Shown here: one piece after another, positions 7,726-32,779 of the stretch
How the letters are laid out: every line of letters starts with the position of its first letter
Position numbering within the stretch: position 1 is the stretch's first letter
Source: Candidatus Poribacteria bacterium
Lineage (GTDB): Bacteria; Abyssobacteria; SURF-5
DNA: 37,789 nt
NCBI GenBank assembly: GCA_016215705.1
Contig: JACRIR010000175.1
Span: 1 to 37,789, forward strand
Direction: 5' to 3'
Notes under the pieces: model-generated
The model's database searches: none
What the model was told of the DNA's origin: nothing
Seen by the model: the letters and a program-made list of their open reading frames with translations, nothing else
Translations under genes and position numbers: made by a program

Positions 7726-7797
7726 GGGCGAACCTTGTGTTCACCCTCCGGAACCTTGTGTTCGCCCAAACTCAAGAATGGGGCGAACACAAGGTTC
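7726..7797. repeat. GGGCGAAC/GTTCGCCC palindromic repeats
   Basis: Three copies of GAACCTTGTGTTC. Two are direct (7730-7742, 7751-7763) and the third is inverted, so 7751-7767 and 7781-7797 form a perfect 17-bp inverted repeat with a 13-base spacer. The outer GGGC...GCCC ends match other hairpins in the window (18436-18504, 25468-25536, 30205-30225, 32664-32735). Confidence 0.8.
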
Positions 7798-7871
7798 GCT
7801 CCTCGAAGAATGTCGAAAGCGACTGGCTTTCAGACATACTCACAATCGTTTCACCACGTGGTATGGCTTGG

Positions 7872-7886
7872 GCATTTATTGTGCCA
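7872..7886 (-). promoter_or_regulatory. Candidate sigma-54 (-24/-12) promoter
   Basis: The minus strand reads TGGCACAATAAATGC. It has the GG and GC dinucleotides 12 bases apart, as required, and TGGCAC is a perfect -24 box; the -12 box is ATGC instead of TTGC. It points at the HD-GYP regulator about 210 bases downstream. No enhancer-binding regulator is in the window. Confidence 0.3.
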
Positions 7887-8284
7887 AACCAGGCTTCTCG
7901 CGGTTTCACCGCTAATCCCGCTGCTGGAACTTCGGCGCGCCTAGCCGGCATAAATGAACATGTCGCCTCTTCGCCCGGCATCCTTGTGCGTCGGACGTCT
8001 TCCAGAGACAGAACTATTCAGTCCGCTAAAGCAATAGCGGACAAGCGATTACGGGAATGAGGGGCCTGAAAAACGAGTCGCAGGTATAGGGACAGCGGAA
8101 GAGAAATAAGCATTTGGCCGTGGGTTCAGAAGTCGAATCCAAATGGATCATCGCCTGAGAATCTCGAACAGCATTCCATTGAGAAAGGCCGGGATTCCCG
8201 GCGGCATTGAGACAACCGACGGTATACCGACACTTGTTGCGGTTTCCGACACCGAAGGCTTGTCCACGACACAATCCTCTTCAT

Positions 8285-8313
8285 TTGAATGCCGGAGTAT
8301 CCTGTGCTAGAAT
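8285..8313 (+). promoter_or_regulatory. Candidate sigma-70 promoter of the que operon
   Basis: TTGAAT (8285-8290), a 17-base spacer and TAGAAT (8308-8313). The leader to queD would be about 45 bases. I saw no preQ1 riboswitch pattern in it. Confidence 0.55.
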
Positions 8314-8366
8314 AAAATAGAAGAGGAAATAATGTCTCCCCTTTTGCCCTGTTTCTCAGGAGACCC

Positions 8367-8759
8367 ATGTTCGTGTATGAGTTAACGATAAAGACCGTTT
8401 TTTCGGCGGCCCACAGTCTGCGGGATTACGAGGGACCCTGCAGCAGGCTTCACGGTCACAACTGGGTTGTGGAGGTTATCGTCTGCGGCAATCAGCTTCA
8501 ACCGAACGGAATACTTGTGGATTTCGGAGAAGTCAAGAAAATCACATCCGATCTGCTCTCCAATCTTGACCACGCCAACCTGAACGAGACGCCTCCGTTC
8601 GACAGGCTCAATCCGACGTCAGAGAATCTCGCGCGCTGGATTTATGAACAAGTCGGCAGGCAGATAAATGGGGACGATGTAAGAGTCACGCAGGTCAACG
8701 TCCGCGAGGCCGAAACGTCGTGCGCGAGCTATTTCGAGGAAATCGTTGAAAGTAAATGA
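8367..8759 (+). CDS. queD: 6-carboxy-5,6,7,8-tetrahydropterin synthase (QueD)
   Basis: Converts 7,8-dihydroneopterin triphosphate to 6-carboxytetrahydropterin, the second step towards queuosine. The 130-residue protein has the PTPS-family zinc histidines H16 (FSAAH), H29 and H31 (LHGHNW), the catalytic cysteine C25, and a later LDHANLN segment. Start ATG 8367 follows AGGAG. It is the first gene of a tightly packed operon, and its last 14 bases overlap the queE start. The next three genes supply the rest of the pathway, which fixes the assignment as QueD and not mammalian-type PTPS. Confidence 0.95.
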   Translation: MFVYELTIKTVFSAAHSLRDYEGPCSRLHGHNWVVEVIVCGNQLQPNGILVDFGEVKKITSDLLSNLDHANLNETPPFDRLNPTSENLARWIYEQVGRQINGDDVRVTQVNVREAETSCASYFEEIVESK

Positions 8760-9381
8760 GATTTTCTTCAGCATCCAGGGCGAATCCTCGTATGCAGGTT
8801 TTCCTTGCGGGTTTGTGCGGCTTGCCGGCTGCAACCTCCGATGCTCCTACTGCGATACAACATACGCATATGAGCAGGGCGAGGAAATGACGATTGGAAA
8901 CGTGGCAGAAGCTCTGACACGGTTTCCGGCAAATCTAGTCGAGATTACCGGCGGAGAGCCTTTGCTTCAACCGGAAACAGGGTTGCTCGCAGCCACTCTC
9001 GCCGACAGCGGGCGGACCGTTTTGATCGAGACGAACGGCGCTCTGTCAATCGAGGGAGTAGACGCAAGGGCGACAGTCATCATGGACATAAAGTGCCCGG
9101 GCAGCGGCATGTCGGAGCGCATGCTGTGGGATAACGTAGCCTTGCTCAAACCGCGCGACGAGATAAAATTTGTGCTTACGGACCGAGCAGATTACGAATG
9201 GGCGCTCGGCATAATCAAGAGGCGCAGGCTCGACGAAAAACATGTAGTTCACCTGGCGCCGGCATTCGGCATCCTCAAACCAAGCAGTTTGGCGGCATGG
9301 ATGCTGGAAGACAAGATGAACGTAAGGCTTCAATTGCAGCTCCATAAGTACATTTGGCCTCGCGTTCAAAGGGGTGTATGA
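8746..9381 (+). CDS. queE: 7-carboxy-7-deazaguanine synthase (QueE)
   Basis: Radical SAM enzyme that contracts 6-carboxytetrahydropterin to 7-carboxy-7-deazaguanine. 211 residues. The cluster cysteines are C29, C33 and C36 ([10 protein letters not shown]), preceded by the QueE signature [12 protein letters not shown], with TGGEPLLQ near residue 67. The start is TTG 8746, five bases after GAGGA. It overlaps queD by 14 bases and shares an ATGA junction with queC, indicating translational coupling. Confidence 0.95.
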
Positions 9382-10070
9382 AAGTGGCGCAAGAACTCGC
9401 AATAGCGCTTGTGAGCGGCGGAATGGACAGTTGCGTCGCAGCAGCCCTGGCGGCGCGAGATAATGAACTCGCGATGCTCCACGTGAGCTACGGCCAGAAG
9501 ACCCAGGAACGCGAGCTTAAAGCCTTCAAAGCAATAGCGCGGCATTATGAAGTCGAACGAACATTGGTCGCTGATATCGGATACCTGAGCCAGATCGGAG
9601 GCTCCAGTTTAACGGACGCCAGCATCGAAGTGGAATGCGCCAACCTTCGAAGGGAAGGTATTCCGACCAGCTATGTGCCATTCAGAAACGCGCACTTTCT
9701 GGCAATCGCCGTTTCCTGGGGCGAGGTTATAGGAGCGCATAGGATTTTTATTGGAGCGGTCGAGCCCGACAGTTCCGGCTACCCCGATTGCCGCGAGGTC
9801 TATTATCGGACTTTCAACGAACTGATTCATGCGGGCACAAAACCGGAGACCCGGCTCGAAATCGTTACCCCGATCATAAAGATGCGGAAAGCCGAAATCG
9901 TCAGGCTCGGAGTTGAGCTTGGGGTCCCGTTCCGCCTGACATGGTCGTGCTACAAGAACAATGATGTGCCGTGTGGAGATTGTGACAGTTGTGCGCTGCG
10001 GGCAAGAGGCTTCGAGGACGCCGGCATCCCCGACCCCATAATTGCGTATGGTGGAAACATGGGACGGTGA
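9378..10070 (+). CDS. queC: 7-cyano-7-deazaguanine synthase (QueC)
   Basis: ATP-dependent ligase converting 7-carboxy-7-deazaguanine and ammonia to preQ0. I use ATG 9378, which overlaps the queE stop as ATGA with AAGGGG just upstream; a TTG at 9354 would add eight unsupported residues. The 230-residue protein has the PP-loop SGGMDS (13-18) and a C-terminal zinc-binding CysX8-CysX2-CysX2-Cys cluster in the segment starting [10 protein letters not shown]. Confidence 0.95.
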
Positions 10071-10107
10071 AACATTCTGTCATTTCCAAGGCGTTTTATC
10101 GTTTAGA

Positions 10108-10165
10108 GGACTTCTTATCATTTCCGCGAATCCTGTCCTCGACCTGATCGAGGACGGGAATTCAT
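10108..10165. repeat. TCATTyCCGCGAA...CGGGAAT repeat, copy 1
   Basis: A palindromic repeat with CCTCGAC/GTCGAGG-like inner arms and CCGCG/CGGGAAT ends. Copy 2 is at 12761-12813 and a truncated copy 3 at about 22197-22232; they align over about 50 bases with scattered changes. It sits between queC and folE2, which may weaken co-transcription there. Confidence 0.7.
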
Positions 10166-10224
10166 GTATCCGGCGCAGTATGATTGCCCGTAGGCAACAG
10201 ATGGAAGGGTAAAGGTAGATACCG

Positions 10225-11013
10225 TTGAAGAAAATGATGAGGGACGTCCAGAGCGAACCGGCCAACCACCGCGTCGAAGTCGATAAGGTCGGCGTAAAGG
10301 ACGTAAAGTATCCAATCGTTGTGCTTGACAAGGCCAAGAAGGAGCAGCATACCATAGCCGACATCAACATGTACGTGAACCTGCCGCATCGATTTCGCGG
10401 CGCCCACATGAGCCGCTTTATCGAAATCCTGAATAAGCACCGCGGCCGTATGTCAATGCACAATATGGAGGGACTCCTGTGTGAAATCGAGAAGACCCTG
10501 GCGGCCGACAGCGCGCATCTCGAAATGAGTTTCGCGTACTTCATCGAGAAGGCGGCGCCAATCTCGGGCGCGAAGAGCCTCACCGAGTACGTCTGCAAAT
10601 TCATCGCAGCCCACAAAAAGGGTAAGCTCGATTTCATTCTCGAAGTCAACGTGCCGGTCACCAGTCTGTGCCCGTGCTCAAAGGAGATCAGCGAGCAAAG
10701 CGCTCACAATCAGCGCAGCCTCGTGACCGTTCAACTGAAATCTACCGAATTCGTCTGGATCGAAGACGTGATCGCGCTGGTGGAAAACTCCGCGAGTTGC
10801 GAGCTCTACTCGCTCCTGAAGAGGGAGGACGAAAAATACGTTACGGAAAAAGCCTATGCGCGTCCGATGTTCGCTGAGGACGTAGTCCGCGAAATCGCCC
10901 AAAAACTCGAGGCCGACGACAACGTGACGTGGTACACGGTCGCGTCCGAGAACTACGAAAGCATCCATAACCACAACGCATACGCTTATATAGAAAAGAA
11001 GATACCGAGATAA
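10225..11013 (+). CDS. folE2: GTP cyclohydrolase FolE2 (type IB)
   Basis: Converts GTP to 7,8-dihydroneopterin triphosphate, the common first step of queuosine and folate synthesis. 262 residues. The family signature VPVTSLCPCSKEIS includes the catalytic/metal cysteine C149 (with C151), followed by AHNQRS (H161) and a C-terminal ENYESIHNHNA segment. The start is TTG 10225, about 9 bases after AAAGG; ATGs at 10234 and 10237 are alternatives. FolE2 works with metals other than zinc in studied species. Placement after queDEC means the cluster encodes the whole GTP-to-preQ0 route. QueF and Tgt are not in the window. Confidence 0.95.
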   Translation: MKKMMRDVQSEPANHRVEVDKVGVKDVKYPIVVLDKAKKEQHTIADINMYVNLPHRFRGAHMSRFIEILNKHRGRMSMHNMEGLLCEIEKTLAADSAHLEMSFAYFIEKAAPISGAKSLTEYVCKFIAAHKKGKLDFILEVNVPVTSLCPCSKEISEQSAHNQRSLVTVQLKSTEFVWIEDVIALVENSASCELYSLLKREDEKYVTEKAYARPMFAEDVVREIAQKLEADDNVTWYTVASENYESIHNHNAYAYIEKKIPR

Positions 11014-11022
11014 AGCGCTGCA

Positions 11023-11075
11023 GCCACCCTTTATTGGGGACACCATGCGGCATGGTGTCCCCAATAAAGGGTGGC
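11023..11075. repeat. GGGGACAC palindromic repeat, copy B
   Basis: Perfect 25-bp inverted repeat (11023-11047 / 11051-11075), loop CGG, core GGGGACACCATG. It occupies the gap between convergent folE2 and murJ, where it could end transcripts from either side, but neither side has a T-tract. Compared with copy A, the core has C for G on one arm and the matching change on the other. Confidence 0.9.
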
Positions 11076-11136
11076 CGTGTTTCTTCCCCAGACAACCCGC
11101 CTTATGAGGACAAGAGACTCGTCGACGGCCTCCGGA

Positions 11137-12765
11137 TTATTTCTTTTTGCGCCGCGCCGACCATATCCGCATTATCTGGGACGCTTCGTCAAACTGCATG
11201 GCCGAGGCCAGTCCCATATAGAATATCACCCCGCCGGAAAGCGGAATAAGAACACAGACGATTTTGCCGGCCATCGTGGCCGGATCAACCAAATGGTCGC
11301 ATATGAGCGCCAGCGCGTAGACGCATGCGCCCATCGCGAGAGATAGACCCGCTATCTTTGCAGTTGCCGCCATAATCATTCGTCGGCCGAAATCACCCAC
11401 TTTTTTTTCCAGGAATATCCACAGCACAACAACGTTCACGGTCGAGGACAATGAAGATGCGAGCGCGAGTCCACCCTGTTTCAATGGAATCATAAGCAGC
11501 GCATTCAGGAGAATATTGAGAATCATCGAACACGCTGCGACAATGACGGGCAGCCGGGTATTCTTCATTGAATAGAAAGCAAACGCGAGCACTTTGGCGC
11601 CGGAGAAGGCATATAGCCCCAGCGAGTAGAACATCAGAGCGAACGCCGTATTGTCGGTCGCGAGCGCATCGAAACTGCCGTGCTCGAAAAGGAGCCGTAT
11701 GATGGGAACGCGCAGAATGATCAGACCCACCGTCGCAGGCAGCATCGTGAACATGACCGTCCTGAGACCAAGCGAAAGCGTTTCTTTGAACTTGTCCATT
11801 TCGCCCGCGCTCGAAGAGCGGGACATCGAAGGCAGAATGGCCGTCGCGACGGACAGCCCGAATACCGCAAGCGGCAGATGCAACAGCCTGTAAGCGTAAT
11901 AGAGCGCCGAAACCATTCCCTCACCCAAATACCATGCGAACATGGTATCGGCAAGCACGTTTACCTCACGCACGGCCTGTCCAAAAAACGTCGGCACAAG
12001 GAGAACAAATATCATGCGAAGACCGGGGTGCTTGAGGTTCCACGCCACCCGCAACGGAATACCGCATCTCCGGATGAAGGGAATCTGGAGCAGGATTTGA
12101 AGTACTCCGCCGATGAGAACGCCGACCGCAAGGCCGTAAACCGGGTCCTTGAAGTTGTTGCGAAAGAGATAAGCGCACGCGATCATCCCGAGATTCAGCA
12201 AAACAGGCGCATAGGCGGTCGAGAAGAAGATTTGGAGCGAATTCAGCATCGCCATGAGCAGCGAAGCTATTCCGACAAGGAGGATAAACGGGAAGACAAC
12301 CCTCGTGAGCCCGATTGCGAGCAGCAGTTTCTCGTCGGGCGGCCCGAACTCAAAAGTGACAAACCTCACGATCTCGGGCGCAAACAAGACTCCAAGCGCC
12401 GATACCGCCATCAGCAGAGCGCCCATGGCGCCGATTGAGACCGCTACAAGCTCTTCGGTCTCCTTGCTGCTCCGCCTGGTCATGTATTCGGAAAACACGG
12501 GAATGAAACCCGCGTTCATCGCCCCTTCGGCAAGCATTTCGCGGAGCATGTTCGGAAGACGAAACGCAACAAAAAAGGCGTCACTGACGGCATTCAAGTA
12601 ATAGTCGGCAATCAGCATATCGCGGATCAGCCCGGTAACGCGACTTAGCATTGTTCCCGAGCTGATTACCGCTGTAGAGCGGGCGATACTGTGACCGGCA
12701 ACTGGTTTTATCGGCATGGAATCCGTGTGTGAAACCCGACTTGATGACTCGGCGCTCTTTGTCAT
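11137..12765 (-). CDS. murJ: Lipid II flippase MurJ
   Basis: Polytopic inner-membrane MOP-superfamily protein that flips lipid II for peptidoglycan synthesis. 542 residues in the longest form, with about 14 hydrophobic helices. Conserved N-terminal block TMLSRVTGLIRDMLIADYY, then FRLPNMLREMLAEGAMNAGFIPVF, both typical of MurJ/MviN. A basic C-terminus (RIWSARRKKK) ends the protein. The first ATG (12765) lies inside a dispersed palindromic repeat and neither it nor Met17 (12717) has a clear ribosome site. The conserved part begins after Met17, so 12717 is quite possibly the true start. Confidence 0.93.
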   Translation of the reverse strand: MTKSAESSSRVSHTDSMPIKPVAGHSIARSTAVISSGTMLSRVTGLIRDMLIADYYLNAVSDAFFVAFRLPNMLREMLAEGAMNAGFIPVFSEYMTRRSSKETEELVAVSIGAMGALLMAVSALGVLFAPEIVRFVTFEFGPPDEKLLLAIGLTRVVFPFILLVGIASLLMAMLNSLQIFFSTAYAPVLLNLGMIACAYLFRNNFKDPVYGLAVGVLIGGVLQILLQIPFIRRCGIPLRVAWNLKHPGLRMIFVLLVPTFFGQAVREVNVLADTMFAWYLGEGMVSALYYAYRLLHLPLAVFGLSVATAILPSMSRSSSAGEMDKFKETLSLGLRTVMFTMLPATVGLIILRVPIIRLLFEHGSFDALATDNTAFALMFYSLGLYAFSGAKVLAFAFYSMKNTRLPVIVAACSMILNILLNALLMIPLKQGGLALASSLSSTVNVVVLWIFLEKKVGDFGRRMIMAATAKIAGLSLAMGACVYALALICDHLVDPATMAGKIVCVLIPLSGGVIFYMGLASAMQFDEASQIMRIWSARRKKK

Positions 12766-12813
12766 TCCCGCGAAAAGCCTGCCCTCGACGTGATGGGGAG
12801 CGGGAATCCATTT
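12761..12813. repeat. TCATTCCCGCGAA repeat, copy 2
   Basis: Second copy of the repeat at 10108-10165. Its first bases supply the ATG (complement of 12763-12765) that opens the longest murJ frame. It lies in the murJ/rpsT divergent gap. Confidence 0.7.
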
Positions 12814-12860
12814 CTTAGTCGTTAGAGTCGGGGTCCCGCCTCCGCGGCAACGCAGATACG

Positions 12861-12889
12861 TTGACTTTTCTGCGTAAATCTGATATCAT
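12861..12889 (+). promoter_or_regulatory. Strong sigma-70 promoter of rpsT
   Basis: TTGACT (12861-12866), 17-base spacer, TATCAT (12884-12889). The leader would be about 37 bases and contains the ribosome site AGGAGGTGA. Confidence 0.7.
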
Positions 12890-12932
12890 TTTTATCTTGG
12901 AAACATACACAACAGGAGGTGAATGAAGACTC

Positions 12933-13196
12933 GTGAAGAAGACAAAGTCCATTCTCAAACGTATCCGCCAGAATGAGAGACATCGTTCCCGCAACCGCTC
13001 GAACGTCTCACAATATAAAACCGCTGTCAAGAAACTTGAGGTCGTGATTGAACAAAAGGACGCTGCAGCGGCGAAAGGCATGCTCCCCGGCGTGGTCGGG
13101 ACTCTGGATAAGGCGGTCTCGAAAACCATTCTCAGCAAGAAATCCGCATCGAGGAAGAAGTCCTCGTTGATGAGGCGCATCAACGCTCTCGGGTAG
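12933..13196 (+). CDS. rpsT: 30S ribosomal protein S20
   Basis: Primary 16S rRNA-binding protein of the small subunit. 87 residues, strongly basic and helical, with the usual S20 ends (KSILKRIRQNERHRSRNRS and KKSSLMRRINALG). The start is GTG 12933, ten bases after AGGAGGTGA (12914-12922). The ATG at 12923 is in another frame. Its last 17 bases overlap the convergent holA gene. It has its own near-consensus promoter, as expected for a ribosomal gene outside the large clusters. Confidence 0.95.
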   Translation: MKKTKSILKRIRQNERHRSRNRSNVSQYKTAVKKLEVVIEQKDAAAAKGMLPGVVGTLDKAVSKTILSKKSASRKKSSLMRRINALG

Positions 13197-14187
13197 CGCA
13201 CAATTCCCTCACCAGCAATTCCAGGTCAATCTCTGGATGCCAGCGTGAGCTGGACTTGAATTTATTGTCCCACTCCACTATTGCGCGGTACATCTTCCTG
13301 AGTTCCTCGAGCGAGAATGAGCGCGCCTGCTGCAAGAAGCGTGTCTTGAGGAACGGCCTTACTTGCAGCGCCTTGATGACCGCGTCGTCCCTGACTCCGT
13401 CCTCGAGCAGGCACTTCGCGCGAAGCAGCCTCTTGACCGTGTAGTCGAGATGCCACAGGATACGGAGTTCGTGCTCCCCGTCGGCAAGCAATTGCCTCAA
13501 CACTGTCCACGAACGGATGAGGTCCCTGTCCGCGACGTGCTCGCTCAGTTTATAAATGGGTTCGCGCCGCCTCGACTCGACGAGCGCGTCGATGTCCGAC
13601 TGCTCAACGGCCTCCCTCTCCCCCACGTACTCGAGAAGATTCGTAACCTCGTTGGACACATCCGACAGGTCGCTGCCCGTAAGCTCAAAGATGTTATCAA
13701 TGAGATGGGGCGATATTCTTTTGCCCTTTTCTCTCAATATTTCACGAATCCACGTCTTCACCTCAGCCGGCCGCAACGGTTGGAGCTCTATTACGTTCCC
13801 GTGCTTCTCAATTGCCTTGGAGAGAGTCTTGCGCCGGTCGAGCCGTTCCGCCGTCAGGACGAGTGTGATAAACGCCGGCAAATCAGCGACAGACTTCTCT
13901 AGCGCTTCCTGAGCCGCTACCGGCAAAGAGCCGACTTCTTGAATCAGCACTACGCGTCTCGAAGAACCGAGTGGGTAGACATTTAATTCTTGGAGGAGAG
14001 CAGGGGCCGATGTGTTGGGAGTGTCCAATTCGGCAAAATTGAAATCCTTCATTCCGTCGCCGAGGGCGACTTCGATGAGCCTGGCGGTGAGCCGCCGTGC
14101 AAGAAACTCCTCCGTCCCCAGAATCAAATAGAGTCGTGAGAGATTGTCGCTACGGACAGTGTTCTCGAATTCGAAGAATGTGGTCAT
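13180..14187 (-). CDS. holA: DNA polymerase III subunit delta (HolA)
   Basis: Clamp-loader delta subunit, which opens the sliding clamp. 335 residues. The N-terminal AAA+-like fold lacks a Walker ATP site, as is normal for delta. Recognisable segments are YLILGTEEFLARRL, LNVYPLGSSRRVVLIQEV, LTGSDLSDVSNEVTNLLEY and the C-terminal collar helices around LRQLLADGEHELRILWHL. It lies downstream of lptE on the same strand, the order seen in Escherichia coli (lptE-holA). The 3' end overlaps rpsT tail-to-tail. No Shine-Dalgarno is seen at ATG 14187. Confidence 0.93.
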   Translation of the reverse strand: MTTFFEFENTVRSDNLSRLYLILGTEEFLARRLTARLIEVALGDGMKDFNFAELDTPNTSAPALLQELNVYPLGSSRRVVLIQEVGSLPVAAQEALEKSVADLPAFITLVLTAERLDRRKTLSKAIEKHGNVIELQPLRPAEVKTWIREILREKGKRISPHLIDNIFELTGSDLSDVSNEVTNLLEYVGEREAVEQSDIDALVESRRREPIYKLSEHVADRDLIRSWTVLRQLLADGEHELRILWHLDYTVKRLLRAKCLLEDGVRDDAVIKALQVRPFLKTRFLQQARSFSLEELRKMYRAIVEWDNKFKSSSRWHPEIDLELLVRELCATRER

Positions 14188-14221
14188 TCAATAAAAGGAT
14201 ATTATTCTGAGCCCTTTACCG

Positions 14222-14246
14222 TCATTCTGAGCGAAGCGAAGAATCT
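14222..14246. repeat. CATTCTGAGCGAAGCGAAGAATCT repeat, intergenic copy
   Basis: A dispersed word of the CATTCTGAGCGxAGCGAAGAA kind in the lptE-holA gap. A second, slightly changed copy at 15751-15775 is inside a coding sequence. Confidence 0.6.
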
Positions 14247-14305
14247 CCGTTCTCGCCGGCTATCCGTGCTACGAATGGAAGACTCCTTCGCAAGGGCCAT
14301 GAGCT

Positions 14306-14809
14306 TCACCAGTCGTTATCGAAGCACTCATAAATAAGCGTTTCGACCAGATTCTCGGTAGCTTCGTCAAGCGCCTCATCCCTTGTGCGACCGCCCAGGG
14401 TCTGATAGAAATCCGTTCCTCTCAGATTCTCCTGCCGCCAGATCATTTTGCCGGTTTTCGTGTCTTCAAGTTCCGCGCTTGCTATCAGAGCTATTCTGAA
14501 CTGGCCGATGTTGTCGTCCGTGTTATAGCTTATGGCGCCGGCCTGAAAACCGGTGATTGCGCCTCTCAACACCATGTCGGCCGCTCCCGGGTCATCAACC
14601 ACCCGAAAACGGCCGTCGGCCTCGAGTTCGCGAATCAAGGCATTCGTCACACGTATCTGAATCTCCTGCTCGAAGCTCTTGTTCTTGAAGGCTGGGACAG
14701 CGATGGTGTGATAATCATCGGAGAGTCGGCTGGTGGCAGTTGTGTAGCCGCAGCCCGAAGTGACGGCGCAAACGCACAATAGCGCGCACAGAGCGAGACT
14801 CCACTTCAC
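14306..14809 (-). CDS. lptE: LptE-like LPS-assembly lipoprotein
   Basis: Probable outer-membrane lipoprotein that plugs the LptD channel in lipopolysaccharide export. I take GTG 14809, which overlaps the preceding stop as GTGA and gives a textbook lipoprotein signal: KWS, a hydrophobic core, then lipobox VTSGC with the lipidated Cys about 20 residues in. The frame could extend to ATG 14848, overlapping the upstream gene by 43 bases. The mature part has the LptE pattern HTIAVPAFKNKSFEQEIQIRV, an ELEADGRFRVV segment and a terminal helix. Neighbours bamD-like and holA support the call. Confidence 0.85.
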   Translation of the reverse strand: MKWSLALCALLCVCAVTSGCGYTTATSRLSDDYHTIAVPAFKNKSFEQEIQIRVTNALIRELEADGRFRVVDDPGAADMVLRGAITGFQAGAISYNTDDNIGQFRIALIASAELEDTKTGKMIWRQENLRGTDFYQTLGGRTRDEALDEATENLVETLIYECFDNDW

Positions 14810-15798: not shown

Positions 15799-15890
15799 CG
15801 AAAAACCCCCTTGCTGCTTCATACTTTTGAAACCGACTACAAGCCGTATTTTATCAAAAACGCCAGGGCATGTCAAAGAAACGACCCACC

Positions 15891-18374: not shown

Positions 18375-18542
18375 TCTTAACATCATGAATTCCCCTCGTG
18401 ATTTCTTGCGCGAACCTCACGCATACAAATCACAAGGGCGCAATGAATTGCGCCCCTACAACCATGAATCAAGAAGCCCTGTAGGGGCGCGATTCATCGC
18501 GCCCGATGTATGCTGCTTGGTTGCGGCTGTGTTGCACTGTGT
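18375..18542. repeat. Dispersed repeat of about 165 bp, copy 1 (double hairpin)
   Basis: Holds two hairpins, GGGCGCAATGAATTGCGCCC (18436-18455) followed by CTAC, and 18481-18504 starting GTAG with inner arms CGCGAT/ATCGCG. An inverted copy at 25431-25595 shares both hairpins, the linker (CATGAATCAAGAA) and recognisable flanks such as CGTGATTTC and GATGTAT-C-TG-TT-GTTGCGGCT. It looks like a non-autonomous MITE-like element. It lies in the gap before the DUF4139 gene, and 18247-18374 holds nothing else I can support. Confidence 0.8.
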
Positions 18543-20150: not shown

Positions 20151-22130
20151 ATGGAGCGTATTGTGAATTCTGAAAACCTGTCCTCTCGGCCCTTTCAACC
20201 CCTGCCCCTGGGCCGCATCCGCCCGACCGGATGGCTAAAGCAACAACTTCAAATCCAGGCCAACGGCCTGAGCGGCCACCTCGATGAGTTCTGGCCCGAC
20301 GTCGCGGAAAGCCAATGGATCGGAGGCAAGGCCGAAGGCTGGGAGCGCGGCCCCTATTGGCTCGACGGAGTCGTGCCCCTCGCATTCCTGCTGAATGATC
20401 CGAAACTGAAATCAAAGGTTCGGCATTGGATCGATTCCATCCTTCAACTCCAGCACGAAGACGGCTGGCTCGGCCCGGTACTCGACGAAACATACGGCTA
20501 CAAGTACGACCCATGGCCCTCTTTCGTGGCGCTCAAGGCCTTGACCCAATACCACGAAGCCACAGCCGATGAGCGCGTCATTCCCGCCATTCAGAAGTTC
20601 TTAAAGAAGCTCGACGCGGTTCTCACCGAAGCCCCGTTGCAGATGTGGGGTCAGTATCGCTGGGCCGATCTTGTCCTCAGTATTCACTGGCTCTATGAGC
20701 GCACGGGCGAACGGTGGCTGCTCGATCTGGCGGCCAAGGCCCACAGTCAAGGATACGATTGGCGTAAGAATTTCGCCGACTTTGCGTTCAAGGAAAAGGT
20801 GAACGTAGAAAAAAGCGCAGAACAGGGGACTTTTCTCGCGACACACGTCGTGAACAACGCAATGGGAATCAAACACCCTGGCGTATGGTATCGGCAATCG
20901 CACAGCCTCGAAGATCGCGACGCTGTTTGGCAGATTCTCGATGTGTTCGACACATATCATGGCCAGGCCACCGGCGTATTCACGGGCGACGAGCACCTGG
21001 CCGGTCTCAATCCCTCCCAAGGCACGGAGCTCTGCGCGGTCGTTGAGTACATGTTCTCCCTGGAAATGCTATTAATGATTCTGGGCGACCAGAGACTGGC
21101 CGACCGCCTTGAACGCATCGCCTTCAATGCTTTGCCCGCCACATTCAAGCCCGACATGTGGGCTCATCAATACGTGCAGCAAGCCAACCAGGCAGTCTGC
21201 AAGCTATCCGAGGACCGCATTTATACCAACAACGGGCCCGACGCCAACATCTTCGGCCTCCAGCCCAACTTCGGATGCTGCACCGCGAACATGCATCAGG
21301 GCTGGCCGAAGTTTGCTTCACATTTGTGGATGAAAACTCTTGACGAGGGATTGGCTGCGGTCGCGTACGCTCCCTGCATAGTAGAAACCGAAATCAAAGG
21401 CCGTAGCGTTCGTATCGAAACTGAAACCGACTATCCGTTCGAGGACGCGATTCGTCTCACTGTGAAAATCGGGGACACGATGCCCCCAATCGCTCCCGTT
21501 GCAGAGGCAGACTCCCAGAAAATCGGGGACACGATGAAGCATCATGTCCCCGATTTTCTTTGCTTCCCTCTGCTGCTGCGGATTCCCGCCTGGGCTGAGA
21601 ATGCAACTGTCCGGGTTGGCGACGAAGCGCCATCGCCCGCCCAAGCCGGAACGTTTCACCGCATCGACCGCAATTGGGGAGAAAACGCCATCGTGACTCT
21701 GCAATTGCCCGCTCGTGTTCGAACCCAAACTCGCCACAATGGAGCGGTTTCCATCGAGCGAGGCCCGCTGATTTTCTCCCTGAGAATAGGGGAAGACTGG
21801 AAACAGATCGGCGGCGAAGCGCCCCACGCAGACTGGGAAGTCTACCCGACAACCGCATGGAACTATGCGCTCGATATAGATCGAGAGAATCCCGAGAAAT
21901 CCATATCTCTCGAATCACATCCTGTGGGCTCTTGCCCATTCTCTCCCGAAGGCGCACCCATTCGCGCGCGCGTCAAAGGCAAGCTCCTACCCGGCTGGCA
22001 ACTCGTGCAAAATGCGGCAGGTCCCGTTCCCCAAAGCCCTGTCCCCTCTTCCTCCCCGCTCGAAGACCTCGAACTCATACCCTACGGCTGCACGAACCTG
22101 CGCATAACCGAATTCCCGACGTTGCCGTGA
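20151..22130 (+). CDS. GH127/DUF1680-family glycoside hydrolase
   Basis: 659-residue protein like beta-L-arabinofuranosidases of family GH127. An N-terminal FQPLPLGRIRPTGWLKQQL segment leads an (alpha/alpha)6 barrel. The candidate catalytic/zinc site is E293, C295 (GTELC), C376 and C377 (NFGCCTANMHQGWPKF), matching the Glu and Cys residues of characterised GH127 enzymes. C-terminal beta domains contain FPLLLRIPAWAENATV and GAVSIERGPLIFSLR. Residues about 440-471 are encoded by a palindromic repeat (21464-21558) inserted in frame between IRLTVK and FPLLLRIPAW. No signal peptide is seen. No clear ribosome site precedes ATG 20151, and GTG 20163 is an alternative. Confidence 0.85.
   Translation: MERIVNSENLSSRPFQPLPLGRIRPTGWLKQQLQIQANGLSGHLDEFWPDVAESQWIGGKAEGWERGPYWLDGVVPLAFLLNDPKLKSKVRHWIDSILQLQHEDGWLGPVLDETYGYKYDPWPSFVALKALTQYHEATADERVIPAIQKFLKKLDAVLTEAPLQMWGQYRWADLVLSIHWLYERTGERWLLDLAAKAHSQGYDWRKNFADFAFKEKVNVEKSAEQGTFLATHVVNNAMGIKHPGVWYRQSHSLEDRDAVWQILDVFDTYHGQATGVFTGDEHLAGLNPSQGTELCAVVEYMFSLEMLLMILGDQRLADRLERIAFNALPATFKPDMWAHQYVQQANQAVCKLSEDRIYTNNGPDANIFGLQPNFGCCTANMHQGWPKFASHLWMKTLDEGLAAVAYAPCIVETEIKGRSVRIETETDYPFEDAIRLTVKIGDTMPPIAPVAEADSQKIGDTMKHHVPDFLCFPLLLRIPAWAENATVRVGDEAPSPAQAGTFHRIDRNWGENAIVTLQLPARVRTQTRHNGAVSIERGPLIFSLRIGEDWKQIGGEAPHADWEVYPTTAWNYALDIDRENPEKSISLESHPVGSCPFSPEGAPIRARVKGKLLPGWQLVQNAAGPVPQSPVPSSSPLEDLELIPYGCTNLRITEFPTLP
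21464..21558. repeat. GGGGACAC palindromic repeat, copy C, inside a gene
   Basis: A half element (GAAAATCGGGGACACGATG, 21464-21482) is repeated exactly at 21518-21536, where it continues as a hairpin with 21540-21558 (19 bp, one wobble). The whole stretch is a multiple of three in effect and stays open, coding for an extra segment in the glycosidase. Confidence 0.88.
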
Positions 22131-25052: not shown

Positions 25053-25430
25053 GCGAAGGGCGAAAGGGACACGATGACAGAGAGGAAGAGACGCAAATCC
25101 GCTGGATTGGATGCTTCTTTCCGAATCACTGCTGTCCAAAACAAAGGAATCTGAACCCTAGCGCGGCGGAGCCGCAACCAAAACAGAAGAAGAAAAAGAA
25201 ACAGGGAATCCGCTGATTTCGCAGATTGCGCGGATTTTTGAAAAAGAAGGAGGGAAAAAGCATTCTCAGCCACAGATGCACCCGGATGGACACAGATTCC
25301 GCGAAAAGGAAAAAGAGGACATGCCCCGCTGATTTGGGCTGATTTTCGCAGATTCTCAGAAGAAGAGGAAAAGAAATCAAGACGGGAATTCACGATTCTC
25401 AACGTGAGTAGTGCAGAGGGCGCGGAGGGG
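25053..25430. other. Intergenic region of decayed repeats
   Basis: Starts with GGCGAAGGGCGAAA and a GGGACACGATG half-site (25066-25076). It continues with several degenerate copies of CGCTGATTT-GCAGATT and ACAGATG-ACCCGGATGGACACAGATT words of the kind dispersed through many environmental genomes. No gene supported. Confidence 0.5.
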
Positions 25431-25595
25431 CACAGCGCGGCATAGCCGCAACTAAACAGGATACATCGGGCGCGATGAATCGCGCCCCTACAGCGTTTCT
25501 TGATTCATGCCCGTAGGGGCGCAATTCATTGCGCCCGTGTGATTTCCATGCAAAGCGTCGCGAGAAATCACGACACAAATTCAAGAAATTAACAG
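25431..25595. repeat. Dispersed repeat of about 165 bp, copy 2 (inverted)
   Basis: Reverse-complement relative of 18375-18542. Hairpins lie at 25468-25491 and 25513-25536. Order, linker and outer flanks all match copy 1 when reversed. The two copies bracket about 6.9 kb. The rest of the gap to 25831 holds nothing I can support. Confidence 0.8.
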
Positions 25596-25831
25596 TGAGC
25601 ACTGCAGAGAAAAACGGCAAAAGCCAATGTCCTCAGCGTACTCTGCGGTTGATGATTTGTGCAAGTTGTTTCGTCTCTGTTATTCATGACAAGGAGGTTT
25701 CCTGGTTTGTGCATGTCAGTGTTACTCAGTGGTGACAGGCTCTTTCGGGGATTCCTTTCTGTTGTCTTGGACAAGAGTGTTTCCGAATCCAAAATCTAAA
25801 ATCGATCGATTCGTGTTCCGAGAGGTTTTAC

Positions 25832-27082: not shown

Positions 27083-27086
27083 CATG

Positions 27087-28805
27087 CTACCTGCCTCTCG
27101 CGCGCATGAGTTTGGCTGGGCCTTCGCCGCCGTTGAGGAGGTACAACAGCGGCGCCGGGCGATCGAGGCCCTCGACAAAAGAGGGTCGAGCCTGCCAGGG
27201 CGCGACCGACAAAACGTTGGCGAGGTCCATCCAATATTGCAGCCGCGCGGCGCCGAGATTCCACACCATATGGAAATGGTTTGCCGGCGCATATTGCTTA
27301 TACTCGGCCATCGTGGCGTACTTGGGCACAACCCACGTGTGCGGCCAGGTAACGTTTGAACTGCTTGCGATGGCTTCGGCCAGCGCGGGCGGGAGATCGA
27401 CCGTAGAGGCCTCATCCCAGACGAGGCTGAACATGCCGGAGAGCTCACTGTATGCCAGACGGGCGGCGATCCCTTCGATTCCTCCGGGCGAGATGAAGGT
27501 GACACTGTTGCCGCCGCCGGGGAAGTAGTGTAGCTCAGCGCCCGGCAGGGCCACCCTTTTCATGATTTCGCGAATCTGCTCGCCCGGCCTGCCGGCCCAG
27601 TCGAGACTCGCCGAACCGGAATTGTCGCCGTCGACAATCCCGCGCTGCGCCCAGAGGTCTTCTTCAGAGTGCTTGATATTCAACTTCGCGGCGAGCCGTT
27701 GAATTTCCCACGGCTCCCACACTTTGCGGAAATCCATGAACAGCGGAGGATTGCCGCCGGAGAGCCATGACATGAAGAGCATGGTAAGCAATCCCTGCGC
27801 GTCGGCTTCGGTGGCGAAGGGAACGACGGGTTTGCGTCCGTTATGGTCAAAGGTCGAATTCAGAAGCGATTCGGCCACATCACATATCGGCAACGGTATG
27901 CCACGAGTGTCACTCGCCCACTCGAGCTGATTCATGAAACCACCGCCGACCGCTTTGAGGTCGTTCATGAGGTCGCGCATGATGAGATACATGGCCAATG
28001 ACCGGTCGAATTTTCCACTCGCAGCATCCTGGGAGAGATCGATTCTGTCGCCAAGGTGGCGATTGAGCCAGGAGCGGAGCTTAGCGAGTTCCTTCCGGTC
28101 ATAGGCCCCTTTTTGCAGCATGTCGGCGAGGAGCTTCATGTCAAGGCGAGTGATCTCCAGGCCGAACCTGTTTCTTGTGGCCGTCACCTGCGCCAGCGCG
28201 GTCTCCATGCCCATCGAGTCGTGCCCGAATATGACGACGCGCCTTCCCCTGAGGCCCGCATACGTGAGGGCCGCATAGCACCAATCGACAAGGGCCTCGA
28301 CTGTTGACTCAGAAGGTTCCGGCTTCATGCCGGTGTCGGGCCACGAACCCACGTTGAGGTGAGTCAATCTGCCGGACTGAGCGAGAGCGCCGTTGACTGC
28401 ATGTGCGAATACAACGCCCGGCTTCGGAGCGCTGTTGCCGCACGTGATATTGATTGGGATGTCGGAGGGCATGTGCGCCAGGAGGCTCATGAGGGTCAAC
28501 TGCGGAAAGGCCCATGTGTCGGGCGCGCACACAATGGCGCCGACACCCGTTTCCTTGAACTGCCGGGCAACGATGTCGGCCTGTTCTTCTCCATCGATCA
28601 GAACAGGAGTCCAGACGACACCGACCGATGCGCCGTCGGGCATTTTCACATGCCGTGCTATCGCGTTCGCCAGGATTTCCACTATGTTTACCGTGCGCTC
28701 TCGGGATTGGTTGTCGATTCGCGGGTCACAGGCCGCGCACACGCCGAACGTCATAACGGGGATCGTTGCTTTTCTGCTTGCCGGAAGCTTCATCGCCTTT
28801 GCCAT
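27087..28805 (-). CDS. fucI: L-fucose isomerase-like protein
   Basis: Mn-dependent aldose-ketose isomerase family, 572 residues from ATG 28805, eight bases after AAGGAG (the frame continues upstream without support). It is close in length to Escherichia coli FucI (591). Catalytic positions line up: E333 (FATEAD), D358 (LFMDFRKVW) and the late histidine in PANHFHMVWN (H510/H512). The family converts L-fucose to L-fuculose or D-arabinose to D-ribulose. It is the last gene of the rhamnose operon, 65 bases after rhaA. Overall identity to true FucI cannot be measured here, so substrate is open. Confidence 0.85.
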   Translation of the reverse strand: MAKAMKLPASRKATIPVMTFGVCAACDPRIDNQSRERTVNIVEILANAIARHVKMPDGASVGVVWTPVLIDGEEQADIVARQFKETGVGAIVCAPDTWAFPQLTLMSLLAHMPSDIPINITCGNSAPKPGVVFAHAVNGALAQSGRLTHLNVGSWPDTGMKPEPSESTVEALVDWCYAALTYAGLRGRRVVIFGHDSMGMETALAQVTATRNRFGLEITRLDMKLLADMLQKGAYDRKELAKLRSWLNRHLGDRIDLSQDAASGKFDRSLAMYLIMRDLMNDLKAVGGGFMNQLEWASDTRGIPLPICDVAESLLNSTFDHNGRKPVVPFATEADAQGLLTMLFMSWLSGGNPPLFMDFRKVWEPWEIQRLAAKLNIKHSEEDLWAQRGIVDGDNSGSASLDWAGRPGEQIREIMKRVALPGAELHYFPGGGNSVTFISPGGIEGIAARLAYSELSGMFSLVWDEASTVDLPPALAEAIASSSNVTWPHTWVVPKYATMAEYKQYAPANHFHMVWNLGAARLQYWMDLANVLSVAPWQARPSFVEGLDRPAPLLYLLNGGEGPAKLMRARGR

Positions 28806-28870
28806 GTTCTTGCTCCTTGCCGCTCTGTGCTCTTCCCAAAAAGGAATGCGGCTGTGTGGGTTCAATGGAT

Positions 28871-30139
28871 TCACGACCGCTTGCACGTGACCTCAGACTC
28901 ATACTTCCTCACCTCATCAATCCACAACTCACGAGGCGGGACATTCATTCTCAGGCAGTAATAGTCCCATACGGCCCCGAACGGCATGCTCTTGAGTTCC
29001 TCCAGGAGCGCCAACCGCCCGAAGTTATCTCCTGCTTCCTCGAACTCCAGTAGCCTCCGCCTCGGTTCCAGCACGGCGCAAAGGACAGCTTTCAAAGCAG
29101 CGCGCGCACCGACCACCCACGCGCCGATCCTGTTGATGCTCGCGTCGAAGAAGTCGAGACCCAAATGCACGCAATTGAGGGCGCCGCCCCGAACGATCTC
29201 CTCCGCCAGATTCCTTGTTTCGTCATTGAGGGTGACGACGTGGTCGCTATCCCAGCGCACACCTCGCGTCATGTGTATCAGTATTTCGGGAGAGAACTGT
29301 AATATCGACGATATCTTGTCTGCGACCGATTCCGTGGGATGGAAGTGGCCCATATCAAGGCAGAGCATCTTTCCCTTTGTCAGCGCGTATCCCATATAGA
29401 ACTCGTGGGAGCCGACGACGAAGGCCTCGCTCCCGATCCCGAACAGTTTGCTCTCGAGCGCATCTTTCATCCGCGACGGGTCGTAGTCGATTGAGAAGAT
29501 ATCATCAAGCGATTCTCTTAACAACGCTCTGTGCGTCCATCGGTCAACAGTAGTGTCCTTTGAGCCGTCGGGTATCCAGAGATTATGGATGCAGGGACTT
29601 GTCAGCTTGCCACCGACGAAGTCGCCGATGCGCCGACATCTCTTGACGTGCTCGATCCAGAATTTCCGGATTTCTTTATTCTTGCTGCTCAACGTGAAGC
29701 CGGAGTCAGCCTTGGGATGCGAGAAACACGTGGAATTGAAATCGAGTTTCAGCCCTTGGCTCTTCGCCCAATTGGTCCAGCCCTCGTAGTGTTTCGGCTC
29801 GATTTCATTCCGATCCACGGAGTGGCCTCCGAACTCCCCATAGCTGGCATGCAGACTCAGTCGATGCCGGCCGGGAATCAGAGAATACACCTTTTCCAGG
29901 TCCATGCGAAGTTCTGCGATTGTCCTCGCCTTGCCGGGATAACCGCCCGTAACTTGAATACCGCCGCCTCTCAGACGAGCATTCGGTTTCTCGAATCCCC
30001 CGACGTCGTCGCCTTGCCAACAGTGAATCGAGAGGGAGACCTTTTCGAGAGTGTGGAGCGTCTCATCCGCATCAATCCCAAGGTGTCCATAGCGCTCACG
30101 GGCCATTTGATACGCTTTTTCTATATTCGATGCATGCAC
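28871..30139 (-). CDS. rhaA: L-rhamnose isomerase
   Basis: Converts L-rhamnose to L-rhamnulose. 422 residues, against 419 for Escherichia coli RhaA. Conserved segments: LSIHCWQGDDVGGFE, ARTIAELRMDLEKVYSLIPG, RLSLHASYGEFGG, NLWIPDGSKD, and the metal-site run VGSHEFYMGYAL, CLDMGHFHPTE and WDSDHVV. Start is GTG 30139 with AAGGA upstream. It lies 142 bases downstream of rhaB, a gap filled by a nested hairpin that could dampen read-through. Confidence 0.95.
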   Translation of the reverse strand: MHASNIEKAYQMARERYGHLGIDADETLHTLEKVSLSIHCWQGDDVGGFEKPNARLRGGGIQVTGGYPGKARTIAELRMDLEKVYSLIPGRHRLSLHASYGEFGGHSVDRNEIEPKHYEGWTNWAKSQGLKLDFNSTCFSHPKADSGFTLSSKNKEIRKFWIEHVKRCRRIGDFVGGKLTSPCIHNLWIPDGSKDTTVDRWTHRALLRESLDDIFSIDYDPSRMKDALESKLFGIGSEAFVVGSHEFYMGYALTKGKMLCLDMGHFHPTESVADKISSILQFSPEILIHMTRGVRWDSDHVVTLNDETRNLAEEIVRGGALNCVHLGLDFFDASINRIGAWVVGARAALKAVLCAVLEPRRRLLEFEEAGDNFGRLALLEELKSMPFGAVWDYYCLRMNVPPRELWIDEVRKYESEVTCKRS

Positions 30140-30161
30140 GGATGGGTTCCTTAGTGGTCTG

Positions 30162-30263
30162 TTTCACAAATGCAATCACGTTTCTCACCGGAGCAAGGGT
30201 GCAAGGGCGACCCACCGGGTCGCCCCTACGTAAGACCGGGGCTACGTGAGCGCATTTGTGAAA
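30162..30263. repeat. Nested double hairpin between rhaB and rhaA
   Basis: Outer arms 30162-30181 and 30244-30263 pair at 18 of 20 bases. Inside is a perfect 9-bp hairpin GGGCGACCC/GGGTCGCCC (30205-30225) followed by CCTAC, of the GGGC...GCCCCTAC class. In the mRNA it would sit between the rhaB stop and the rhaA ribosome site. Confidence 0.75.
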
Positions 30264-30281
30264 ATGTGTACTTGTCCGGGT

Positions 30282-31766
30282 TCAGCTTGACCGACCGGTT
30301 GCGCTCATTATATCGCAAAACCGACCATAGGCCGTGTTCCATTGTGCTGTTTGGTCGGGAACGTATGTTGTCACGTCGAATGAATGCCTGATCACGTCGC
30401 GTATTTCGCCAAGCGAGGAGAGGCCCCCATGCGAAAGCGCCTGCACCATGATGTTTCCAATGGCGGTGGCCTCGACCGGCCCTGCAATAACGGGAATGCC
30501 GGTGGCATTTGCCGTGAACCGGCATAAGAGGTGGTTCCTGGCGCCTCCGCCAATCATGTGGATTCGGTCTATCGGGCGTGAGTATATCCTTTGCAACTGA
30601 TCCAACACGAACCGGTACTTAAGGGCCAGGCTCTCGAGAATACAACGCACGAATTCGCCTCGGGAAGCGGGCGCCTTTTGGGCGGTCTTCCTGCAGGCGC
30701 CGTATATCGCTTCGGGCATGTCCGTTGGATTCAAGAACTCATGCCAATCGGGGTCAATAAGCGCCGTAAAGGGCCTGGCAGTTTGGGCGGACTCGAGCAG
30801 TTCCTCGTAACCGGGATTATCTTCTCGACCCCAAGCTCTTCGACATTCTTGAAGCAGCCACAACCCAGCGATGTTCTTCAAGAATCTGAAGGTTTCTCCG
30901 ACGCCGCCCTCATTGGTGAAATTCAATTGCAGGGATTCGCGGGTTATGATCGGGGCCTTCGTCTCGATTCCCATGAGGGACCATGTTCCCGAGCTTATGT
31001 AGGCCCAATCATCTCCTTCCGCCGGAGCCGCCGCCACCGCCGAGCCCGTGTCATGAGTGGCGACTGCGATTACGGGAACATTCGAAATGCCCACCTCTTG
31101 TAAGACCTCTGCGGATATCTCTCCGACAGCGCTTCCGGGCGGAACGATTTTCTGCATCAGTGACACCGGCAATCCCAGCGCCGAAAGGAGTTCGTCTTCC
31201 CAATCGCCCTTAGTCGGATTATAGAGTTGCGATGTGGTTGCAAACGTGAACTCGGTCTTCTTCACGCCGGTCAAAAGGTAGTTGAGCAAGTCAGGAATGA
31301 ACAAGAGGTCGGTTGCAACCTCCAGGAGGGGAGATTTGTCACGGGCCATCGATTCGAGTTGAAACAACGTGTTCAGTGGGAGGAACTGAATGCCCGTCAA
31401 CTCATACACGCGCTCACGGGGGACCTTCTGAAAAAAAGATTCCATTGCGCCGTCGGTGCGGCTGTCGCGATACGCATACGGCAAGCCCAATATGCCGCCG
31501 TCGCGCGCGAGCAAGCCAAAATCAACTCCCCATGTGTCGATTCCGATGCTATCCGGGGTACACTCTCGAGCGCAAATACGAAGTCCTTCTTTGACATGGT
31601 CGAAGAGATCGAAAATATTCCAATGCAGATGCCCTCGAACCGAGACCATACGATTGGGGAATCGGCAGACTTCGCGAATGCCGAGTCTGTCCTTCCACAA
31701 TTCCCCCAGGATGCCGCGTCCGCCCGATGCTCCTAAATCGAACGCGAGAAACACGGATGGCTTCAC
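30282..31766 (-). CDS. rhaB: Rhamnulokinase
   Basis: FGGY-family sugar kinase phosphorylating L-rhamnulose at C1. 494 residues. ATP-site motif DLGASGGRG (11-19), sugar-contact GIDTWGVDFGLL near residue 75, ATHDTGSA near 237, ISSGTWSLMG near 257, and the second-domain adenosine motif IHMIGGGARNHLLCRF. The GTG start at 31766 is 3 bases past the rhaD stop, with GGGGGA upstream inside rhaD. Motifs favour RhaB over FucK, in agreement with rhaA and rhaD on either side. Confidence 0.93.
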   Translation of the reverse strand: MKPSVFLAFDLGASGGRGILGELWKDRLGIREVCRFPNRMVSVRGHLHWNIFDLFDHVKEGLRICARECTPDSIGIDTWGVDFGLLARDGGILGLPYAYRDSRTDGAMESFFQKVPRERVYELTGIQFLPLNTLFQLESMARDKSPLLEVATDLLFIPDLLNYLLTGVKKTEFTFATTSQLYNPTKGDWEDELLSALGLPVSLMQKIVPPGSAVGEISAEVLQEVGISNVPVIAVATHDTGSAVAAAPAEGDDWAYISSGTWSLMGIETKAPIITRESLQLNFTNEGGVGETFRFLKNIAGLWLLQECRRAWGREDNPGYEELLESAQTARPFTALIDPDWHEFLNPTDMPEAIYGACRKTAQKAPASRGEFVRCILESLALKYRFVLDQLQRIYSRPIDRIHMIGGGARNHLLCRFTANATGIPVIAGPVEATAIGNIMVQALSHGGLSSLGEIRDVIRHSFDVTTYVPDQTAQWNTAYGRFCDIMSATGRSS

Positions 31767-31769
31767 CAG

Positions 31770-32591
31770 CTATTCCCCCAGATTGAACTCCCTCGCCAAC
31801 TCGTCAATCTGCTCTTTGCCGAGGCCGGTCGGAACATGTCCCACGCTGCGACATTTGAGAACAATGGAAGCAGCCTTGTTCAGGACGTCGATCAAATCAA
31901 ACGCCACTGCGGGGCTCTCTGCCTTCGCCACACATCCGTGCATCTCCCACAATACAACCGAACGTCCCCGGCGAAAGCCGTCCGCCGTTGCCCGCGCCAA
32001 CGACTCGGAGCCGGGTATCGCATATGGAACAAAGTCTACGCCTCTCGGCAGGTTAACCTTGACTTCCGGATGGACACACCACAGCGCCCGATTGAGAGAG
32101 GCCTCGTCTCGATATTCCGGCAGATGAGTCAGGACTATCAGTTCGGTGGGGTGGGTATGCAGGACTACTCTTTCGGTCGCACCGGCTTCACGGATATACT
32201 CGTGGAGCCTTAGATGAGTCGGGAATTCGGACGTTGGCCTAAAGTCGGGGATTGAAGCGCCACCCCAGACTATCCGATATCCGGACCCGTTTTCAGAGAT
32301 GCGCAATATACACGTGTTGCGCGCGGGGTCCCGTGCGAGGTCTCTGAATTTACGGCCGGAGCCAGTGACAAGGAAGTAACGATTTGCAAGAAGAGGATAG
32401 TTGAATGGAAGCGCTCGCTGTGTTGTGCGCGCCTGTTCGATTCCAGAATCAGACACGATTTCTGTGACATCGACCGACAGATTGCCCGCATTGCGTTCGG
32501 CCCAGCCCTTTTCCCAAAGGTATCCGGAAACAAGAAACAGTTCCTCAAGGACAGGTTTCAGTTCAGGACACGTGGTGATCAGATTGTTCAT
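31770..32591 (-). CDS. rhaD: Rhamnulose-1-phosphate aldolase
   Basis: Class II zinc aldolase splitting L-rhamnulose-1-phosphate into dihydroxyacetone phosphate and L-lactaldehyde. 273 residues from ATG 32591, seven bases after AAGGA (Escherichia coli RhaD has 274). Upstream in-frame codons run through four palindromes and are excluded. Zinc ligands appear as HTHPTELI and the later EMHGCVAK histidine; ERNAGNLSVD is the usual N-terminal loop. Co-transcribed with rhaB. Confidence 0.93.
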   Translation of the reverse strand: MNNLITTCPELKPVLEELFLVSGYLWEKGWAERNAGNLSVDVTEIVSDSGIEQARTTQRALPFNYPLLANRYFLVTGSGRKFRDLARDPARNTCILRISENGSGYRIVWGGASIPDFRPTSEFPTHLRLHEYIREAGATERVVLHTHPTELIVLTHLPEYRDEASLNRALWCVHPEVKVNLPRGVDFVPYAIPGSESLARATADGFRRGRSVVLWEMHGCVAKAESPAVAFDLIDVLNKAASIVLKCRSVGHVPTGLGKEQIDELAREFNLGE

Positions 32592-32614
32592 TGTTTTTCC
32601 TTCTGCGCAGACTT

Positions 32615-32779
32615 CCAGCGAGGAAAATCCTCGCTGGAGAGTGTCCCACAAGTGCGACTCCGAGGGCACAGCATGCTGTGCCCCTGCAGGAAATGCTCGG
32701 TTTTGCAGGGCGTGTGGGCACGGCGCGCCGTGCCCCCACATTTGATCCATAACTACAGGACAGTCCCGAATTACGGGAC
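32615..32779. repeat. Cluster of four palindromes upstream of rhaD
   Basis: In order: CCAGCGAGGA/TCCTCGCTGG with loop AAA (32615-32637), GGGCACAGCATGCTGTGCCC (32664-32683), GGGCACGGCGCGCCGTGCCC (32716-32735), and GTCCCG/CGGGAC (32763-32779). All lie in the 221-base gap between the second oxidoreductase and rhaD, so would be transcribed in the operon leader of rhaD. Confidence 0.85.

Follow-up and report, generated by a model that had tools for sequence, protein, structure and literature searches.

The hairpins found along a 37,789-nucleotide stretch of Candidatus Poribacteria bacterium (contig JACRIR010000175.1 of assembly GCA_016215705.1; the whole stretch is hereafter the window) very probably represent several families of GTAG-tagged repetitive extragenic palindromic (REP) sequences, i.e., non-autonomous substrates of a REP-associated tyrosine transposase (TnpAREP or RAYT) of subclass 2.4 (RAYT group 4), a label that derives here from the REP type and the in-frame REPs. 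They are new members of a known system, and the surprises remain mild (a single REP shared unchanged between phyla, and REP cores that are well preserved without a detected cognate RAYT). The original prediction, made from the letters of the window alone, described at least seven hairpins with a GGGC-arm-loop-arm-GCCC frame, often followed by CTAC, and with differing but self-complementary inner arms, for which REPs moved by RAYTs were named as the nearest parallel. This designated the relevant system but was too cautious, since REPs of identical sequence occur at the RAYT genes of other genomes and within them.

All the hairpins of this frame listed at first exist in the window, seven in number, plus one damaged cluster. 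Read on the correct strand, the frame is GTAG-GGGC-arm-loop-arm-GCCC, and the ‘CTAC’ is the GTAG tag seen from the opposite strand. The unpaired GT[AG]G tag lies directly 5′ of the stem (exact GTAG in five hairpins, GCAG at 32664-32687 and GTGG at 32716-32739) and is lost in the degenerate CGAAC cluster, while stems of 8–9 bp and loops of 2–4 nt fall within the perfect or near-perfect 6–13 bp stem and short loop of REPs. In folding tests on single-stranded DNA, three hairpins with the exact tag gave z-scores of −4.3 to −5.6, and the GCAG and GTGG copies gave −2.4 and −2.0, respectively, a less clear signal because their shuffles are also GC-rich. The CGAAC hairpin announced at 7751 does show pairing (17-bp stem, 13-nt loop), but between two damaged REPs of CGAAC(CTTGT)GTTCG type that point towards one another (7751-7767 and 7781-7802); a further damaged copy lies at 7726-7746. 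Likewise, the GCAAT and GCGAT hairpins are real but not independent items, being the halves of one tail-to-tail heterodimer with a 21-bp spacer, found twice in the window in opposite orientations. The features are as follows (G000 denotes the source genome, other G numbers further genomes, C numbers contigs and L numbers loci):

7726-7746, plus strand: degenerate REP of the CGAAC family (GGGCGAACCTTGTGTTCACCC), tag lost (sequence and fold; intact relatives within the G002 RAYT, L253)
7751-7767, plus strand: degenerate REP half of the CGAAC family, pairing with 7781-7797 (sequence and fold)
7781-7802, minus strand: degenerate REP of the CGAAC family, reverse orientation (sequence and fold)
18397-18435: outer flank of a composite REP element, GTGATTT...AAATCAC hairpin side (conserved next to the GCAAT REP in numerous copies of this genome; edge approximate)
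18436-18459, minus strand: REP GTAG-GGGCGCAAT-TC-ATTGCGCCC, heterodimer half (sequence and fold)
18460-18480: heterodimer spacer, 21 bp (copy comparison)
18481-18504, plus strand: REP GTAG-GGGCGCGAT-TC-ATCGCGCCC, second heterodimer half (sequence and fold; the HdN1 RAYT, L123, has this REP 5′ of the gene and within it)
18505-18541: outer flank of the composite element, GGTTGCGGC... side (copy comparison; edge approximate)
25428-25467: outer flank of the second composite element, GCGGCATAGCCGC side (copy comparison; edge approximate)
25468-25491, minus strand: REP GTAG-GGGCGCGAT-TC-ATCGCGCCC (sequence)
25492-25512: spacer of the second heterodimer, 21 bp (copy comparison)
25513-25536, plus strand: REP GTAG-GGGCGCAAT-TC-ATTGCGCCC (sequence)
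25537-25576: outer flank of the second composite element, GTGTGATTT...AAATCACGACA side (copy comparison; edge approximate)
30205-30229, minus strand: REP GTAG-GGGCGACCC-GGT-GGGTCGCCC (fold; GACCC-arm REPs with another 3-nt loop in the RAYTs of G030, L252, and G003, L281)
32664-32687, minus strand: REP with GCAG tag, GGGCACAGCATGCTGTGCCC (fold; identical hairpin within the G165 RAYT, L315)
32716-32739, minus strand: REP with GTGG tag, GGGCACGGCGCGCCGTGCCC (fold; identical hairpin within the G011 RAYT, L277)

The REP of each window arm family was also found at or inside a RAYT gene in other genomes. The CGAAC arm lies inside the G002 RAYT (G002 being a relative from the same family), the GACCC arm inside those of G030 and G003, ACAGCATGCTGT (ACAGC arm) inside that of G165, and ACGGCGCGCCGT (ACGGC arm) inside that of G011, with a loop variant in G001; the RAYT genes of G001 and G011 carry REPs both immediately upstream and in frame. 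The GCAAT/GCGAT REPs occur at RAYTs at five loci: in the gammaproteobacterium HdN1, they lie 5′ of the gene and form an in-frame heterodimer (its GCAAT half with one base changed), and by coordinates they stand beside RAYT genes or fragments at G032:C67, G032:C266 and G226:C20 and within one at G227:C26. Pfam Y1_Tnp alone misses the relevant RAYTs or barely registers them, and our own profile was therefore needed; built from three REP-linked RAYTs and applied to 98 genomes, it matched 34. REPs were found inside the open reading frame (ORF) in 40 of 63 distinct RAYT genes, and inside or at most 300 bp away in 51, a count that is low if anything because longer-loop REPs (e.g., G011:C16) escape the scan, for which the control gave three hairpins in 227 kb of reversed sequence. 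The in-frame REPs are mostly located in the linker after PNHxHG, between the HUH and Y motifs (around residues 75–106 of the domain in most). The proteins match Pfam Y1_Tnp and NCBIfam REP_Tyr_transpos (the latter under its curated cut-off), with a weak match to the solved TnpAREP structure 4er8. In addition, 14 of 17 REP-rich genomes carry this RAYT versus 20 of the 81 others (Fisher p 1.4e-5), and REP distance is correlated with RAYT distance even after masking of the REP-coded linker (Mantel r 0.235, a value reached in 0 of 2000 permutations).

Note that REPs with many different arms are translated in frame within RAYT proteins (e.g., AGLKPALSTPRAGLKPAPT and ERARHAVPLQ), as seen at L239 (6405-6466), L236 (6896-6919), L253, L252, L277 and others. 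As another observation, the subclass 2.4-type RAYT profile matched 14 times in G018 (L225-L233, L258, L287-L294), a genome that also has many REP families that have GTAGGGGC in common and very varied arms, several of which flank their RAYT on both sides.

In the source genome itself (5.47 Mb in 270 contigs, 92% complete), the pattern GTAGGGGC(N8-22)GCCC gave 392 matches versus 9 for the same pattern reversed, a control from which about 0.06 exact hairpins would be expected by chance in the window, versus the 5 observed. About 1.2 Mb was read directly for hairpin places, dimers and element flanks, and contained 195 distinct REP places, 42 of them tagged on both sides (‘double foot’); this feature and the three G-C foot pairs given by the GGGC/GCCC frame are those of subclass 2.4. 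The scan used for these 1.2 Mb, looser than the pattern above, returned 237 tags versus 58 in reversed sequence, and its rarer entries therefore include chance matches. The main arms are GCAAT-TC-ATTGC, GCGAT-TC-ATCGC, ACGGCGCGCCGT and GACCC-GGC-GGGTC, followed by GACTC..GAGTC, GGTTCGCGAACC, GCAGCATGCTGC and GAACCTTGTGTTC; they fall into families, within which the copies are mostly identical. A further palindrome, GTGCGAAT-TC-ATTCGCAC, often GTAG-tagged and of non-GGGC frame, was noticed near other REPs of this genome (L185, L193, L204).

The covariation of the inner arms, and with it a constraint on the hairpins to remain paired, was borne out. Among 92 source-genome copies of the 20-nt class, selected by tag and foot alone, the five inner pairs are all intact in 78, and over distinct arms Watson-Crick inner pairs reach 85% versus 48% when the 3′ halves are shuffled (91% versus 51% in 110 named contigs). 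All loci together provided 39 perfect arm versions, with each inner pair found as all four pair types, and the frame stays fixed over many arm families. Seventeen pairs of perfect arms are one compensated pair apart, and the unpaired intermediate was found for only 4. The other 13 are what could be expected from fold-back (template-switch) correction, in which a polymerase takes one arm as the template for the other, a mutation reaches both arms at once and selection is unneeded. However, 14 of the 92 copies are imperfect yet uncorrected, and identical REPs are retained at RAYTs with a protein identity of only 45–70%, which means that arms change slowly and not rapidly. Fold-back would also leave unexplained the fixed GTAG tag, the fixed foot, the few amplified dominant sequences and the RAYT association. 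We thus consider this mechanism, which the original prediction had offered, very improbable and not needed, the arms mostly representing distinct families that are long-lived and associated with different RAYT lineages.

As substrates of a subclass 2.4 RAYT, the REPs would be bound as single-stranded hairpins through recognition of the GTAG tag and the foot, as published biochemistry suggests, and the transposase would cut and join beside the REP, so that copies spread singly or as inverted dimers. Tag, foot and stem pairing would have to persist, the inner stem would change only pairwise, and each RAYT lineage would bear its own stem version. The window arms would then differ because each is a distinct RAYT-specific family, and stem complementarity would persist because the RAYT needs a paired single-strand hairpin; in subclass 2.4, a tag and foot that stay fixed beside a stem whose two arms vary freely, but together, may be the trace left by pairing-dependent recognition. 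In this way, a known transposase-substrate system accounts for the puzzle of fixed-end hairpins whose stems are swapped and covary. For the perfect-stem REPs of a different RAYT group, a stem mismatch strongly cuts or nearly abolishes cleavage, and complement-swapped stem blocks are tolerated or have a moderate effect at most (Corneloup et al. 2021, PMC8266576). These group 3 REPtrons of Stenotrophomonas and Marinomonas (PMC8266576; Nunvar et al. 2010, PMC2817692) share with our case perfect-stem REPs, RAYT-REP coevolution and palindromes preserved through complementary changes, and their cleavage needs pairing; they differ in RAYT group and REP frame, and the biochemistry is that of group 3.

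The GTAG-tagged REP superfamily, in which heterodimers and sub-families with alternative complementary stem residues were already described (Di Nocera et al. 2013, PMC3733652), resembles our REPs in these two features as well as in the unpaired GTAG at one end, the short perfect stem, the 2–5 nt loop, the many copies and the inverted dimers. The genome and, probably, the arm families reported here are additions to the 24 published families. Subclass 2.4 REPs (Quentin et al. 2018, PMC6006769), for which in-frame REPs within RAYTs were also described, likewise combine an unpaired GTAG, a foot of three G-C pairs, a perfect stem, heterodimers and double-foot copies with GTAG and CTAC. Unlike those systems, the window genome has REPs without a detected subclass 2.4 gene, and its REPs build composite elements with conserved flanking hairpins.

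Several observations weigh against our interpretation. The profile search detected no subclass 2.4-type RAYT in the source genome, an absence that remains uncertain because the assembly is 92% complete, and the cognate RAYT that a REPtron has in the same genome was thus not found in G000. The RAYT-like genes that this genome does have differ from the REP-linked RAYTs, and their terminal repeats are unrelated to the window REPs. Elsewhere, some closely related RAYTs bear different REPs, and REP excess is only weakly rank-correlated with RAYT number (Spearman 0.22, p 0.03). Finally, REP mobility in the source genome is our inference: a RAYT probably moved the REPs there formerly, where none is now detected.

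As the original prediction stated, no RAYT gene lies in the window, and the Y1_Tnp matches of the whole source genome are confined to contigs C225 and C28, with three RAYT-like genes. C28 (L014) carries two near-identical genes (3-659 and 1741-2412) 1.1 kb apart in direct orientation with GGTATTATGTCCCCGGAATAA flanking repeats, and the C225 gene is flanked by GGGGTCAGGTCTTGAA-type inverted repeats. TIRYT genes have terminal repeats with a GGGGWSAS-like motif (Di Nocera et al. 2013, PMC3733652), which the C225 flanks fit exactly and the C28 flanks with one base off. These three genes are the sole Y1_Tnp genes found in the source genome and match the NCBIfam REP transposase model, which might suggest that they move the REPs as a foreign substrate; this is most improbable, as they are flanked by their own unrelated repeats and not by GTAGGGGC hairpins, and they were ruled out as the REP movers. 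On C28, the downstream gene is framed by TTATTCCGGGGACATAATACC inverted repeats and the upstream gene, which lies at the end of the contig, shows its 3′ repeat; the C225 gene (L016, 47-1030) has 327 codons, and its C-terminal part matches NCBIfam DnaA C-terminal domain models.

The GCGAT-GCAAT heterodimer, an inverted dimer, occurs 28 times in the 1.2 Mb with spacers of 20–22 bp and is part of a larger composite element whose outer hairpins are conserved. When the copies were compared in a single orientation, with gaps permitted in spacer and flanks, identity among the 28 was 97% and 94% for the REP halves, 58% for the spacer and 48–51% for the flanks (30% for random sequence); although the partners were selected loosely, partner mismatches were either 0–5 or at least 14, assuming a 21-nt spacer. 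REP cores far better conserved than the element remainder, in a genome whose cognate RAYT is undetected, would be compatible with a host role (mRNA end protection, attenuation, binding of gyrase or another protein) that mainly keeps the hairpins, their mobility being past, and all window copies are indeed intergenic, as judged from ORFs and the Pfam domains of most neighbours. We find this unlikely, since the same sequences occur inside the RAYT reading frames of other genomes, the window copies share no consistent genetic context, the Rfam search of the window hairpins matched no family, and no T-run follows the hairpins, which therefore are not intrinsic terminators. For the source genome, either the cognate RAYT lies in the missing part, or it was recently lost, or the REP cores are kept otherwise. 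That selection or trans-acting factors maintain the 24-bp REPs after RAYT loss, while the surrounding element erodes, seems doubtful.

The exact 24-mer GTAGGGGCGCGATTCATCGCGCCC occurs in no fewer than 110 stretches from named genomes that, judged by record title, belong to at least 10 phyla, including Actinobacteria (Coriobacteriales, Eggerthellaceae), Gamma- and Betaproteobacteria, Desulfuromonadales, Myxococcales, Chloroflexi, Armatimonadetes, Acidobacteria, Gemmatimonadetes, Planctomycetota, Latescibacterota and Chitinispirillia (the latter belonging to Fibrobacteres). The records are mostly metagenome-assembled, HdN1 being a complete genome. Across taxa (L055-L164), the copies have unrelated flanks and differing dimer geometry (e.g., head-to-head in Gallionella, tail-to-tail in the window), and the element, in either form, is present in 8 of 290 sampled genomes, a patchy occurrence as expected for horizontal spread. 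Among 110 named contigs, a RAYT adjoins GTAGGGGCGCGATTCATCGCGCCC only in HdN1 (full), as a truncated Myxococcales gene and as a weak Polynucleobacter match. It is conceivable, though unlikely, that exact GTAGGGGCGCGATTCATCGCGCCC was held identical over at least 10 phyla while RAYTs sharing a REP drifted to 45–70% identity. Altogether, our data provide a clear case of a REP identical across phyla although its transposase has diverged, and of a REP-rich genome in which no RAYT was detected. They also add many REP-RAYT pairs, several in one genome, that bear on the question of how new stem versions originate jointly with their transposases.

Another palindrome family (...GGGGACACGATGC/GCATCGTGTCCCC...) was noticed in the window at 3868-3906, 11023-11075 and 21517-21559; outside the window, it also occurs in this genome within the spacers of some GCAAT/GCGAT dimers. 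These palindromes resemble the GGGGACAT terminal repeats of the C28 RAYT-like genes and fit the TIRYT GGGGWSAS motif.

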